Assembly (NCBI GenBank): GCA_030432035.1
Contig: JAUIHO010000010.1
Location: 1 to 43,656 of the forward strand
DNA from: Phycisphaerae bacterium
Lineage (GTDB): Bacteria > Planctomycetota > Phycisphaerae > UBA1845 > UTPLA1
DNA length: 43,656 nt
Reading direction: 5' to 3'
Shown here: positions 3,789-34,117 of the stretch, piece after piece
How positions within the stretch are numbered: position 1 is the stretch's first letter
Layout: the number at the start of each line of letters is the position of its first letter
Notes under the pieces: model-generated
What the model was told of the DNA's origin: nothing
Database searches by the model: none
What the model saw: only the letters and a program-made list of their open reading frames with translations
Made by a program: the position numbers and the translations under genes

Positions 3789-3838
3789 ACCGTGTTCATG
3801 CTAATTATTTAGTTCTGAGTTCACTTCTTCGGATACAA

Positions 3839-3876
3839 CCCTCATCCCGGCGTTCTCCCTGCAAGGGAGAGGGAGC
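3839..3876. repeat. dispersed hairpin repeat, CCCTC(A)-CTCTCCCT family, copy 1
   Basis: A CCCTCATCCCGG leader is followed by a hairpin of TCTCCCT and AGGGAGA around a GCA loop. The same unit recurs at 16868-16905 and, degenerate, at 37433-37493. It lies between convergent genes, where such REP-like sequences often sit. Confidence 0.7.
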
Positions 3877-5684: not shown

Positions 5685-5712
5685 GAGACTGGTCGACTCC
5701 GTGGTGTTGGTT

Positions 5713-5780
5713 AGTCCCCCACCCTTGGAAAGGGTGTGGCATCCAATTCTGGTGCCCCTGCCCCTCTGTGGCTGGGGGAC
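5713..5780. repeat. REP-like hairpin pair in inverted arrangement (AGTCCCCCA...GGGGCACC family)
   Basis: Two units face each other. One (5713-5744) has an ACCCTTGGAAAGGGT hairpin; the other (5751-5780) is the reverse complement of the consensus AGTCCCCCAGCCCCAGAGGGGC followed by AGGGGCACC. They are separated by about 6 nt, as in paired REP/BIME elements. Confidence 0.7.
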
Positions 5781-12665: not shown

Positions 12666-12683
12666 GTGGGGTGCGTGCGGTGT

Positions 12684-12715
12684 AGTCCCCCAGCCCCAGA
12701 GGGGCAGGGGCACCC
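12684..12715. repeat. REP-like hairpin, consensus copy
   Basis: Clean example of the AGTCCCCCAGCCCC-AGA-GGGGCAGGGGCACCC unit. CCCC-A-GCCCC pairs with GGGGC-A-GGGG around an AGA loop, with one A/A mismatch. A degenerate second unit may follow (GAGTCCCGAAGGGGTAGGAGCAC, about 12738-12760). Confidence 0.75.
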
Positions 12716-12822
12716 GGTGGGGCAGGCGTAGCCTCCGAGTCCCGAAGGGGTAGGAGCACGCGGTGCGGGTGTGCCCGGCGGACTACAATTCATCCGAAAG
12801 TTACTAAGGATAAGGAACCGCG

Positions 12823-14760: not shown

Positions 14761-14883
14761 TTACATTACGCCTCTTGTGCTAATAGCAACGGGAGGCGTG
14801 ATGCGTCAGCGATTCGATAACGACAAATGTGTTAATAGGGGTGGGTTTGTGAATCACGAGGCCGCGGGTGTTGCGCACACAAT

Positions 14884-14994
14884 GGGTGACCCTGCCCCTT
14901 TGGGGCTGGGGGACTACCCCAAACGAGATAATATAATCACGCGCATCGTTAACTTCACGATGGTTCCCCAGCCCTGGAAGGGCAGGGGCACCCG
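14884..14994. repeat. two REP-like hairpins in opposite orientation
   Basis: A reverse-oriented unit (14884-14914, GCCCCTTTGGGGC core) and a forward unit (14963-14994, GCCCTGGAAGGGC core) lie about 50 nt apart between the helicase stop and the DUF885 start. Translating through them gives unnatural peptides, which helps exclude an upstream start for the next gene. Confidence 0.7.
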
Positions 14995-15025: not shown

Positions 15026-16816
15026 TTGTTCTCCACGCGCGTCAGGTTTGTGGTTGCGAATATTTTTGCAGTGATGTTGATCCCGGCGGTGGCGTGTCAG
15101 GCACCGTTGAGTGCTGGCACGAGCGCGAAGGTTGATGCGGCATACCGTGATGGTGCGGCGCTCGATGCGATTTTTGACGCTTACTGGAACGCCAAGTTGC
15201 GGCAGGGGCCGGAATGGGCGACGTATCTCGGCGATCATCGCTTTGACGATCAACTGACGGATTACAGTGAGGCGGCGCGCGACGAACAGTTACAACAAAC
15301 GGCGGCACTGCTCGGGTTGGTGCGGCATGCGGCGCCGTATGCGACGAATAGCGACGATCGACTTAGCGCGGCGCTGTTTGAGGCGAGCCTTCAAGATACG
15401 TTGGCGCTGGCCGAGTTTCCCGATCATCTGATGCCGATCAAGCAACAGAATAGCCCCCACCTTACGTTGGGCACGCTGCGAACGCATTCACCCTTCGATA
15501 CGCCACAAGATTGTGCGAACTATGCTGCGCGGATGTCGGTCTTTAAGACGCAGGCTGATCAACTGATTGCGTTAATGGACGAGGGTATTGCGCGCGGCGT
15601 GGTGCGACCGAAGATTACGATTGAGCAAGCGTTGCCGCAGTTCGATGCGATGATCGCCGACGATCCGACGGACTCGCCGTTGTACGAACCGGCGTTATCG
15701 TTGGCGGAGGGCGCGGGCGGTGCCGAGTCGCAAGCGAAGATTCGCGCCGGGGTTGCGGATGCGGTGGTAGGGCTCAAGAAGTTGCGGCGCTATTTGAAAG
15801 GCACGTATCTACCCGCGTGTCGCGATACAGTGGGGTACTGTTATTTGCCTGATGGTGCGGCGTGGTATCGAGCGCTGGCTAAGCATCACACGACGACGAA
15901 CATGAGCCCGGAGAAGATTCACCAATTGGGCTTAACGGAATTGAAGCGTATTCACGAAGAGATGCGCGCGGTAATGGCCGAAGTCGAATTCGACGGCACG
16001 CTGCAGCAGTTTATCGAACACATGCGCAACGATCCCGATCAGCACAACAAGTCGCCGGAAGAAATCATGCGGCGGCATCGTGAGATTCTGACGCGTAGTG
16101 ATGCGAACTTGCCCAAGCTGTTCGGTCGATTGCCAAAGACGCCGTATGGCTTGAAAGAGATCGAAGCGTTTCGCGCGCCGGGGTCGGCGACGGCGTATTA
16201 CTACAACGCGCCGGACGACGGTTCGCGACCAGCGTACTTTTATATCAATGTTTATAAGCCCGAGACGCGCCCGAACTACACGATGGAGGCGTTGGCGTAT
16301 CACGAGGCGCAACCCGGGCATCATTTGCAGATTGCATTGGCGCAAGAGCGTAAGGATTGGCCGGCATTTCGGCGGTTCGAACACATCACGGCGTTTATCG
16401 AAGGTTGGGCGTTGTATTCGGAGCGCTTGGGGTATGACCTCGGCGGCTATCAGGATCCGTATGCGCGTTTCGGGCAACTCACGTACGACGCGTGGCGTTC
16501 GTCGCGCTTGGTGGTGGATACCGGCATGCATTATTTCGGTTGGTCGCGCGAGCGGGCAATCGAGTTTATGAAAGAAAACACGGGCCTAAGCGAGCAGAAC
16601 ATTATTAGTGAGATCGACCGATATATCGCGTGGCCGGGGCAAGCGCTGGGTTATAAGGTGGGGCAACTTGAGATAAGTCGGCTACGCGAAGAGGCAGAAC
16701 AAGCGTTGGGCGAACGATTTGATATTCGCGTGTTCCACGATCATGTATTGGCGGAAGGGTCGATACCGATGTCGATCTTGCGGACGCGCATGCGCGAGTG
16801 GATCGCGCGGCAATAG
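15026..16816 (+). CDS. DUF885 family lipoprotein, putative metallopeptidase
   Basis: A 596-residue exported protein. The signal peptide ends in a lipobox (IPAVA|C), indicating lipid anchoring. The DUF885 signature is present: YHEAQPGHHLQ with H426, E427, H432 and H433, an HExxPGHH arrangement resembling a zinc peptidase site, then FIEGWALYSERLGYDLG. Near the C-terminus YIAWPGQALGYKVGQ matches the family. Enzymatic activity is inferred, not established for most members. The frame stays open back to 14777, but that stretch crosses two REP-like repeats. TTG 15026 puts the charged n-region and hydrophobic core right at the N-terminus and gives a family-like length. I see no strong ribosome-binding site, so the exact start is uncertain. 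Confidence 0.85.
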   Translation: MFSTRVRFVVANIFAVMLIPAVACQAPLSAGTSAKVDAAYRDGAALDAIFDAYWNAKLRQGPEWATYLGDHRFDDQLTDYSEAARDEQLQQTAALLGLVRHAAPYATNSDDRLSAALFEASLQDTLALAEFPDHLMPIKQQNSPHLTLGTLRTHSPFDTPQDCANYAARMSVFKTQADQLIALMDEGIARGVVRPKITIEQALPQFDAMIADDPTDSPLYEPALSLAEGAGGAESQAKIRAGVADAVVGLKKLRRYLKGTYLPACRDTVGYCYLPDGAAWYRALAKHHTTTNMSPEKIHQLGLTELKRIHEEMRAVMAEVEFDGTLQQFIEHMRNDPDQHNKSPEEIMRRHREILTRSDANLPKLFGRLPKTPYGLKEIEAFRAPGSATAYYYNAPDDGSRPAYFYINVYKPETRPNYTMEALAYHEAQPGHHLQIALAQERKDWPAFRRFEHITAFIEGWALYSERLGYDLGGYQDPYARFGQLTYDAWRSSRLVVDTGMHYFGWSRERAIEFMKENTGLSEQNIISEIDRYIAWPGQALGYKVGQLEISRLREEAEQALGERFDIRVFHDHVLAEGSIPMSILRTRMREWIARQ

Positions 16817-16867
16817 ATGTTTAATAGTTTATTCAGTCGGTTCGATGGTGTAATTGACGGTGGACGA

Positions 16868-16905
16868 CCCTCACCCCGGCCCTCTCCCTGCGAGGGAGAG
16901 GGAGC
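16868..16905. repeat. dispersed hairpin repeat, CCCTC-CTCTCCCT family, copy 2
   Basis: Best copy of the family: CCCTCACCCCGG followed by CCTCTCCCT-GCG-AGGGAGAGG, a perfect 9-bp stem. It lies 51 nt after the DUF885 stop. Confidence 0.75.
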
Positions 16906-17001
16906 TTTTTGAGAGTGTCTTTCAAGCGACCGTAGCGGCAATAAGCTGACCGCGTTTAGTTTATTGATTCTTAAGGCCTGGTAGGGCTGATTGGTTGACA
17001 G

Positions 17002-17049
17002 CCCCGGATGAAGCGCAGACCGCGTTAGTGGTCGGAGCGCAATCCGGGG
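17002..17049. repeat. long hairpin (CCCCGGAT ... ATCCGGGG)
   Basis: The outer 8-bp stem is 17002-17009 with 17042-17049. An inner GACC/GGTC stem is 17018-17021 with 17030-17033. It is followed after 32 nt by the 133-nt structured repeat. It may be part of the same composite mobile or regulatory unit. Confidence 0.6.
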
Positions 17050-17081
17050 TAACAGGTTGCACATGCGTTAAGCCCCGGCAA

Positions 17082-17213
17082 GGGGCGTAGGTACCTGCAC
17101 CGCTACCGCGGTTTAACAATCGATACACCTCGGACCATGGATTGAGCGGCTATTGCCGCTCCATCCATGGCTCTCGACCTTCGCCCCTTCCGGGAATAAG
17201 AAAAACTATCACG
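17082..17213. repeat. structured dispersed repeat of about 133 nt, copy 1
   Basis: Matches 26286-26418 along its whole length. Predicted stems: an outer GGGGCG/CGCCCC closing pair (about 17083-17088 with 17181-17186), a CACCGCTACCGCGGT arm, and a long hairpin CCATGGAT/ATCCATGG (17135-17142 with 17162-17169) holding an inner AGCGGC/GCCGCT stem. The right end (CTATCACG) contains, on the minus strand, the stop codon of the methyltransferase gene. Confidence 0.75.
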
Positions 17214-17886
17214 TTGGTGACACGCGGCAATGCCGAAATGCGCATAGCCCGTCGCTTAATACGTCGAGCGTTTCGGCTTCTAAAAGGTTGGCGATGATGG
17301 TTAATGTTTCGGCGCTATAGAAGGCGACGTGCGTTGCGTCGCGCGCGTACCACCAATGGTGGATCGACGCTGGACCGGCGTGCCATTGCGTTTGCATAAT
17401 GAATGTGCCGCGTGGTCGTAATAGCGCGGCGATGCGCGCGAAGGTCGCGCGGGGATGGGCGAAGTGTTCGGCGGTTTCGACGCAGGTGATGATGTCGAAA
17501 CTCGCGCCGTCAACAAATGACGGCGCGAAGAACGGGTCGTAGTCGGTCGCGTTGAAACCATCGCGTTTGAGCAGTTCGACTAAGACCGGCGTTGGGCCGC
17601 AGCCAAAATCGAGAATGCTGGGATTTGGCTGCGCGGCGGCGTGGTCGCGAACGGCTTCGCGGATTCGGTCGAACGTGGCGACGTAGCCGGGGTCGTCGAT
17701 GCTGTTGTGGTGTTGAAGGTAGCGATCCCGCTCGCGGTCGCGCGCGGGTAGGGCGGATTCGTCGACGAAGACCAGGTCGCAATAGGGGCAGTGCCACATC
17801 GGCCGGGCCGGGGCAGGCATCACCTTGGTGGTCGGAGCGGCTTCGCAAAGGCGGCATGGTGGGGTTTGGGCCGAGTCGTTGGGCAT
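17209..17886 (-). CDS. class I SAM-dependent methyltransferase with N-terminal zinc ribbon
   Basis: A 225-residue soluble protein. Four cysteines in two CxxC pairs (C11/C14 and C33/C36) form a probable zinc ribbon, and a Rossmann methyltransferase domain follows. The SAM-binding motif I is ILDFGCGPTPVLVELL; motif II lies around FDIITCVETAEHF; ALLRPRGTFIMQTQ follows. This layout resembles the Methyltransf_23 group that modifies small molecules or sugars, but the substrate is unknown. The start is ATG 17886 (a GTG codon directly precedes it). The stop codon lies within the tail of the structured repeat, so the repeat may have redefined the C-terminus. Confidence 0.85.
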   Translation of the reverse strand: MPNDSAQTPPCRLCEAAPTTKVMPAPARPMWHCPYCDLVFVDESALPARDRERDRYLQHHNSIDDPGYVATFDRIREAVRDHAAAQPNPSILDFGCGPTPVLVELLKRDGFNATDYDPFFAPSFVDGASFDIITCVETAEHFAHPRATFARIAALLRPRGTFIMQTQWHAGPASIHHWWYARDATHVAFYSAETLTIIANLLEAETLDVLSDGLCAFRHCRVSPT

Positions 17887-17952: not shown

Positions 17953-18004
17953 CAGTGATGGGAGAAGGCTATGCAGGTCAGTGATGGGAGAAGGCTATGC
18001 AGGT
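17953..18004. repeat. perfect 26-bp tandem duplication
   Basis: The unit CAGTGATGGGAGAAGGCTAT plus GCAGGT occurs twice with no mismatch (17953-17978 and 17979-18004). Perfect identity suggests a recent duplication. It lies in the gap between the divergent methyltransferase and nrdJ genes. Confidence 0.9.
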
Positions 18005-25904: not shown

Positions 25905-26039
25905 GTTTGGGGCTTTTTAGACCGTGCCGAAGTCGAATGTAGCCGATTTGAGATTTTGCCGACGACTTTAAGCACGAATTGAACTTTCGGATTTTCGCGT
26001 TCACCGCTATGTTTATTCGTCCTCTTCTACGCCACAGGC

Positions 26040-26285
26040 GTTGTCTCATCAGCCTGGGGTTGACGCGAAGCGGCTACCCTAGGAAATCGTTGGCAAGATT
26101 CCATTGAACTCTGAAGGAGTTCCGCCATCGTTCGGCATGCCGCAACGCCTTCAGCTTTGAAATCCTTGAGTTTTCACCCGCAACCCAGGGTAGCTGCTGC
26201 GCATCAACCCTGGGCTACTGGCGTAACGCCTTTGGCGTTGGATTCCGCTTATCGCATCTCAACGCTATTTGCATTGCGAACGCAA
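26040..26285. repeat. composite of dispersed inverted repeats
   Basis: Includes ACTCTGAAGGAGTTCC (about 26108-26123), a CCCAGGGTAG ... CCTGGGCTAC pair (about 26183-26219), and AACGCCTTTGGCGTT (about 26225-26240), all imperfect or perfect palindromes. It directly precedes copy 2 of the 133-nt element. Any translation here (for example of 26157-26339) is an artefact of repeats. Confidence 0.55.
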
Positions 26286-26418
26286 AGGGGGCGTAGGCAC
26301 CTACACCGCTACCGCGGTTTAACGCGCGAAATAATATGAACCATGGATTGCGCGGCTAGCGCCGCTTCATCCATGGCTCTCAACCTGCGCCCCTCCGGGG
26401 CTGAGAAAGACTATCACG
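26286..26418. repeat. structured dispersed repeat of about 133 nt, copy 2
   Basis: Same layout as 17082-17213: GGGGCGTAGG ... CCTGCGCCCC closing ends, CACCGCTACCGCGGTTTAAC arm, CCATGGAT/ATCCATGG hairpin with an inner GCGGC/GCCGC stem, and the ACTATCACG tail. The sequence has drifted in loops and linkers while the stems are preserved. It ends 73 nt from the stop of the cyanophycinase-like gene on the minus strand. Confidence 0.75.
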
Positions 26419-26490
26419 ACGCCAAACTGGAATGAAAAATGGTCTAAGGTTTGATGGCCGTTTGCTCTGAGAAGGCAACTTGCCGATCGC

Positions 26491-33922: not shown

Positions 33923-33951
33923 GGATTGGTTGCGCTTGCTTGGATTTCTAA

Positions 33952-33983
33952 AGTCCCCCAGCCCCAGAGGGATAGGCTCACCC
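33952..33983. repeat. REP-like hairpin
   Basis: AGTCCCCCAGCCCCAGAGGG then ATAGGCTCACCC, a slightly diverged copy with the right arm mutated. It lies 30 nt after the CPBP stop. Confidence 0.7.
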
Positions 33984-34084
33984 GTGCAAGTTCGGATGGA
34001 AAGGGACATCCAAACGCTTAGATAGACATTCAGCGTTGATATTGGCTTGCCGTTTCGCGGTTCTCGCGCGTACTGAAGATTCGT

Positions 34085-34117
34085 AGTCCCCCAGCCCCAG
34101 AGGGGCAGGGGCACCCA
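34085..34117. repeat. REP-like hairpin, consensus copy
   Basis: Identical in its core to the copy at 12684-12715 (CCCCAGAGGGG with flanking CCCCCA and AGGGGCACCC). It is in the same orientation as the copy 133 nt upstream. The rest of the 33923-34322 gap shows no gene. Confidence 0.75.

Follow-up and report, generated by a model that had tools for sequence, protein, structure and literature searches.

The stretch of DNA that was analysed (the window, 43,656 nucleotides of a Phycisphaerae bacterium) carries two copies of a structured repeat. The first lies between a DUF885 gene and a methyltransferase gene (PF13489, 17209-17889, minus strand) that runs into the tail of the element, and the second lies beside an M48 peptidase gene. 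The initial annotation had placed both copies behind minus-strand genes, which holds, but the two gaps are convergent and each copy also lies behind a plus-strand gene (DUF885; M48 peptidase). The copies extend from about 16911 to 17213 (copy 1) and from 25920 to 26444 (copy 2). Their features are listed below, together with those read by comparison with the sister genome CP030884.1 (complete chromosome of the Planctomycetaceae MAG ECT2AJA-110-A), the nearest relative among the genomes compared, which shares about 86-91% identity with the surroundings of the window.

16911..16974, plus strand: copy 1, left end derived from an IS630 terminal inverted repeat, with spacer, GAGAGTGTCTTTCAAGCGACCGTAGCGGCAATAAG... 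(left-end profile 16912-16974, 65 bits)
16975..17093, minus strand: copy 1, left module, an inverted three-hairpin module (model R1 match 17105-16958 on the minus strand, 58 bits, E 2e-13)
17002-17049: long hairpin of the left module, CCCCGGAT...ATCCGGGG
17072-17086: short hairpin of the left module
17092..17205, plus strand: copy 1, right module (model match 17080-17213, 150 bits; folds)
17099-17112: first hairpin of the right module, ACCGC/GCGGT
17135-17170: long hairpin of the right module, CCATGGAT/ATCCATGG
about 17183-17196: terminal hairpin of the right module
17206..17213, plus strand: copy 1, start of the right IS630-derived end, CTATCACG, remainder missing
17209..17211, minus strand: TGA stop of the methyltransferase gene, inside the element tail CTATCACG
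25918..25919, no strand: copy 2, left TA of the target duplication (empty site GGCTTTCTAATGATT in the sister genome)
25920..26285, plus strand: copy 2, left half, starting GACCGTGCCG, with other GTAG-type palindromes in inverted arrangement (e.g. 26184-26217)
26286..26418, plus strand: copy 2, right module of the same family as 17092-17213 (model match 157 bits)
26407..26444, plus strand: copy 2, intact right IS630-derived end, ...CAAACTGGAATGAAAAATGGTC (right-end profile 26407-26446, 46 bits)
26445..26446, no strand: copy 2, right TA of the target duplication

The two-copy alignment and the covariance-model matches for the right modules (17080-17213 and 26286-26418) agree that the two window copies align end to end; the outer stem CCATGGAT/ATCCATGG is identical in both, and the inner stems read AGCGGC/GCCGCT in copy 1 and GCGGC/GCCGC in copy 2, as first annotated. 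The structured repeat is therefore real, but the 133 nt given for it are not its natural unit, as they begin inside a hairpin of the other half. They form the right-hand part of an element whose left half and two transposon ends lie outside them. The covariance model of the 133-nt region matches this left half on the opposite strand with 58 bits, so that one module of about 120 nt with three hairpins, in the order short hairpin, linker, long hairpin, tag and terminal hairpin, occurs twice, head to head, in the interior of the element, hereafter its cargo.

The initial annotation had also allowed for an element confined to two places and had proposed a search of this genome and its relatives. 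This search revealed a whole family: among 29 places found by BLAST in the window's genome, 28 are genuine copies (the 29th being a 19-nt match only), and modules occur in other genera as well. The consensus of the whole element is about 330 nt (about 28 genomic copies), and full-length copies of this size, all turned to the same strand, run from TAGAGCGTTTTTCAACTGACCGTAGCGGCA to CGCCAAACTGGAATGAAAAATGGTCTA, both ends being common to them. The element does not contain any transposase reading frame of its own. A plasmid collection gave no match to it, and Rfam returned nothing except a tRNA over the window at the gathering score and no credible family over the element at E up to 5.

In copy 1, the left-end consensus matches the left end of a resident IS630, and the right end breaks off after CTATCACG, at a point beyond which other copies run on to ...GAATGAAAAATGGTCTA. 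The right-end profile finds no right end for this copy, which therefore offers no readable TA pair of its own. The methyltransferase gene takes its stop from the element, as had been proposed: the TGA at plus-strand positions 17209-17211 lies within CTATCACG, and the sister gene (77% identical) has a different end, its product terminating in ...GLCVFHRHDR instead of the ...GLCAFRHCRVSPT found here. The spacer between the DUF885 and methyltransferase genes measures 424 nt in the window versus about 56 nt in the sister genome. The simplest account would be an insertion beside the end of the methyltransferase gene, then a deletion that took the right end of copy 1 together with the last codons of the gene and fused the element tail to it. 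A repeat, CCCTCACCCCGGCCCTCTCCCTGCGAGGGAGAGGGAG, lies directly left of copy 1 (16862-16906; also at 3835-3876) and recurs next to other copies, such as L009, as well as in the sister genome; a perfect 26-nt tandem duplication, CAGTGATGGGAGAAGGCTATGCAGGT, is found just upstream of the methyltransferase gene (17953-18004).

The element ends are imperfect inverted repeats, TAGAGCGTTTTTCA / TAGACCATTTTTCA (terminal repeats TAGAnCnTTTTTCA...). The same genome harbours, on contig C80, an intact-looking IS630-type element whose ends, TAGAGCGTTTTTCATTTGGCCGTAGCGG and, read inwards at the opposite side, TAGAGCGTTCTCATTCCAGACTGGCG, enclose a DDE_3 transposase. When the ends of the two elements are compared, the left ones score 22 (background maximum of 13 in 40,000 windows, drawn with element copies excluded) and the right ones score 14, a modest likeness reached 8 times in the 40,000 background windows. 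The right-end pattern, allowing up to 3 mismatches, has 16 genomic matches, all 16 of which bound cargo, and its reversed control has 0. Profiles of the ends detect a clear IS630-derived end in 20 of the 28 copies, a weak one in another 4 and none over the module loci of other genera. The transposase of the C80 element (L034 980-1990) is read in two overlapping frames, a helix-turn-helix-like one and a DDE one, that flank eight consecutive A, a split that suggests programmed frameshifting, and a second copy of this IS630 (L035) is truncated where its contig ends. Another genome, G003, has seven IS630 relatives with 37-38% identity (L146, L148, L150-L152); they have one or two TGA inside the match, several copies score identically, and they would form a frameshifted or decayed family.

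Four insertions (copy 2, L003, L009 and L010) have matching empty sites in CP030884.1. For copy 2, the sister genome reads GGCTTTCTAATGATT where the window reads GGCTTTTTA, then GACCGTG...AATGGTC, then TAAGGTTT, i.e. a 525-nt insertion and one extra TA. The joined flanks of the three other insertions run unbroken through the sister genome: at L010, TCTAATTT stands against TCTAAATT, which makes it, with copy 2, an exact single-TA empty site; the L003 site also keeps its TA, and the L009 site is AA, not TA, in the sister. Five of the copy sites are without the element in the sister genome. At the site of L006, that genome carries about 660 nt of unrelated gene-like sequence in place of the element (L141 830-1510). 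The copies that the sister genome does possess have weaker ends according to the end profiles, as expected of relics, and a search of this genome for an IS630 relative yielded none passing the threshold. Given the TA target, the shared ends and the empty sites, the element is an IS630-type MITE, and the suggestion of a non-autonomous mobile element made in the initial annotation was right.

Copy 2 is a hybrid, with the usual right module and right IS630 end and a different left half, which is 85% identical to locus L018 over 359 nt and contains a self-inverted repeat (26029-26238). Modules of different families have therefore been exchanged within the same frame. The window also has a second family of palindromes, GC-rich and GTAG-tagged (GTAGTCCCCCAGCCCCAGAGGGGCAGGGGCACCC), at 5711-5780, 12682-12761, 14866-14993 and 33950-34116; with six direct copies and additional inverted ones, it constitutes another REP-like family of the same genome.

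On either strand, no shuffle reaches the fold of copy 1 or copy 2 (z of -7.6/-5.9 for copy 1 and -2.9/-3.4 for copy 2). Compensatory changes are practically absent from 32 close copies (only 3 cells), so the lack of covariation named beforehand as an argument against structural constraint nearly holds among them, but the stems do covary in 31 diverged modules, which come for the most part from the family's other genera and were aligned independently with MAFFT. In this set, which was chosen with a model already scoring the tested pairs, 7 of the 14 pairs change on both sides, with 30 cells versus 6.2±1.9 expected (0 of 500 shuffles). The covariation score is 0.229 versus 0.092, slid controls remaining at or below 0.054, and RNAalifold predicts the same stems from this alignment. 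Within the genome, the 13 fullest copies match the consensus at 93-99% in the hairpins, 81-87% in the IS630 ends and 74-79% in the linkers. A three-way junction closed by GGGGCG/CGCCCC, a fold suggested by the 133-nt view, was rejected: this stem connects the left module's short hairpin with the right module's terminal hairpin, has no real covariation, shows the lowest proportion of paired cells (87%) and is broken in copies having another left half.

The modules have a second context. When the surroundings of the Y1 transposase genes (PF01797) of 12 genomes were searched, diverged versions of the cargo modules were found to flank them, mostly as inverted pairs (G003, G005, G007, G008, G009 and G010), with one pair in single orientation (G011). 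Model matches in the family's other genera are weaker, and some of those in G003 enclose a Y1 gene. In the window's own genome, the module that follows the Y1 gene of contig C112 scores 98 bits, and the one on its 5' side is weak (15.5 bits). A scan of the phylum with a second model gave matches in 30 of 199 sampled genomes. Among them are three pairs with a spacing of about 480-510 nt, from three genomes of another family, all with a Y1 gene inside; close pairs in this list are head-to-head in 9 cases and tail-to-tail in 2, and modules pair inverted with their tags outside. Same-strand module arrays, unlike the usual inverted pair, exist at L091, L173 and L174, the last two beside Y1 genes. 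The tag, which precedes the long hairpin on the other strand, is GTAG in most modules of other genera and GAGAG or GACAG in the window's genus; the GTAG REP superfamily tag is also known from Planctomycetes (PMC3733652). The GGGGWSAS motif of published TIRs gave no match by eye.

The cognate Y1 protein scores 81.5 bits with the IS200/IS605 model NF033573, above its cut-off of 55, and 32.9 bits with that of REP-associated tyrosine transposases (NF047646), below the curated cut-off of 80. The Y1 proteins resemble solved IS200-like transposases, including TnpA of ISHp608, have the IS200 length and contain DHVH as well as Y---Q--HH, reported as the signature of TnpA-Y1 subclass 1.2 (PMC6006769). 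The cargo modules are thus probably the recognition ends of a Y1 (IS200/RAYT-like, HUH) transposase, brought together as a REPIN-like pair with no gene between them.

The whole feature is very probably a composite non-autonomous transposon, in which an IS630-type MITE frame carries a pair of Y1-end modules as cargo. Judging from the shared ends and flanks, its mobility can be pictured as follows. The IS630 transposase of contig C80 would mobilise the frame and hence move the copies between TA targets, and a Y1 enzyme, which would recognise the cargo hairpins as single-stranded DNA, may have moved the cargo. It is conceivable, and we propose it tentatively, that the element is a nested one with two possible drivers: a REPIN-like Y1 end pair captured, or was captured by, IS630 ends and spread into TA sites by means of the double-strand DDE enzyme, while the substrates of the single-strand HUH enzyme were kept, the hairpins being conserved because this second enzyme still acts.

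The initial annotation had offered a 3'-end RNA structure as an alternative, that is, an element of stability or termination kept by selection behind genes, its mobility being secondary. The strong folds on both strands would agree with this, as would the placement of the copies: of 26 with a gene on both sides, 17 occupy convergent gaps, 7 co-directional gaps and 2 divergent gaps (for the convergent ones, P of 1.6e-5 versus one quarter and 7e-4 versus 33%), although the gene strands behind this count rest on an ORF heuristic. Convergent placement also fits an avoidance of promoters, REPs have the same placement bias (PMC3733652), and the sister genome, where 4 of 9 copies lie between convergent genes, does without the element at the five sites mentioned above. 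A scan of 16800-17260 for terminators found none with a T-tract after the element's own hairpins; the terminator-like sites of this region are the hairpin of the CCCTCACCCCGGCCCTCTCCCTGCGAGGGAGAGGGAG repeat, its best one, outside the element (16880-16902, T5 tail), and a weak one that spans the tail junction. Since the covarying modules flank the gene of a single-strand-DNA transposase, the pairing of the stems is explicable as DNA. An RNA element is hence very improbable as the primary identity of the repeat; a secondary 3'-end role, drawn from the convergent-gap bias, is possible.

Two readings dispense with one half of the composite transposon. A plain IS630 MITE whose interior hairpins have nothing to do with a second transposase, as in RUP or Correia elements, would account for mobility through ends, TA and copy number, and long stem-loop folding is frequent in MITEs (PMC2229807), but the interior is homologous to Y1-flanking modules of this and other genera, in the same inverted geometry, which makes this reading very improbable. 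The least probable is a REPIN/BIME-type repeat spread by a Y1 transposase with the IS630-like ends as an incidental flank, for although the cargo is a Y1 gene flank in head-to-head pairs and module pairs without IS630 ends exist in other genera, most copies have such an end (20 clear and 4 weak among 28), every genomic right-end match bounds cargo and the single-TA empty sites of copy 2 and L010 fall exactly at these ends.

The composite transposon shares features with two known types of repeats. Like IS630-derived MITEs (RUP of Streptococcus pneumoniae, Correia of Neisseria, ERIC-like TA elements), it is small, non-autonomous, mostly intergenic and strongly folding, with TA ends, imperfect terminal repeats common to an IS630 and an occasional reading-frame fusion (PMC2229807, PMC2817692); unlike them, it is longer (330-525 nt) and GC-rich, and in its interior the paired end modules of another transposase can be recognised. 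Like REPINs or head-to-head REP dimers and the REPtrons or TIRtrons of RAYTs (PMC3733652), it has an inverted pair with tags outside, the same module flanking a Y1 gene and, in most modules of other genera, the GTAG tag. It differs from them by modules of about 120 nt with three hairpins, versus a palindromic unit of 20-40 nt, by the GAGAG/GACAG tag of the window's genus, and by its IS630 ends and insertion at TA. The closest arrangement is that of the GTAG-15 dimers of Anabaena variabilis, regularly located inside a long TATAGGA...TCCTATA palindrome with TA at both ends; in the passage of PMC3733652 that describes them, this outer palindrome comes with no linked transposase, target duplication or empty site, whereas here an IS630 is linked. 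Among the papers searched, mostly from outside subscription journals, none brings REPIN, RAYT and IS630 together.

IS630 MITEs and REP pairs were both already known; here, a REPIN-like pair is carried by an IS630 MITE. The case comes with a putative parent IS630, with empty sites in a sister genome and with a sister lineage whose copies have decayed and which yielded no related IS630 transposase. In addition, Y1 transposases with Y---Q--HH receive elaborate inverted end modules: TnpA-Y1 subclass 1.2, reported mostly from Cyanobacteria and Bacteroidetes, was described as generally devoid of terminal structures (PMC6006769), unlike the genes of Planctomycetota considered here. A covariance model is available that detects such modules in the 30 genomes of the phylum sample. 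MITEs and REP-type repeats are usually regarded as separate classes depending on different enzymes, and in this genome one carries the other.
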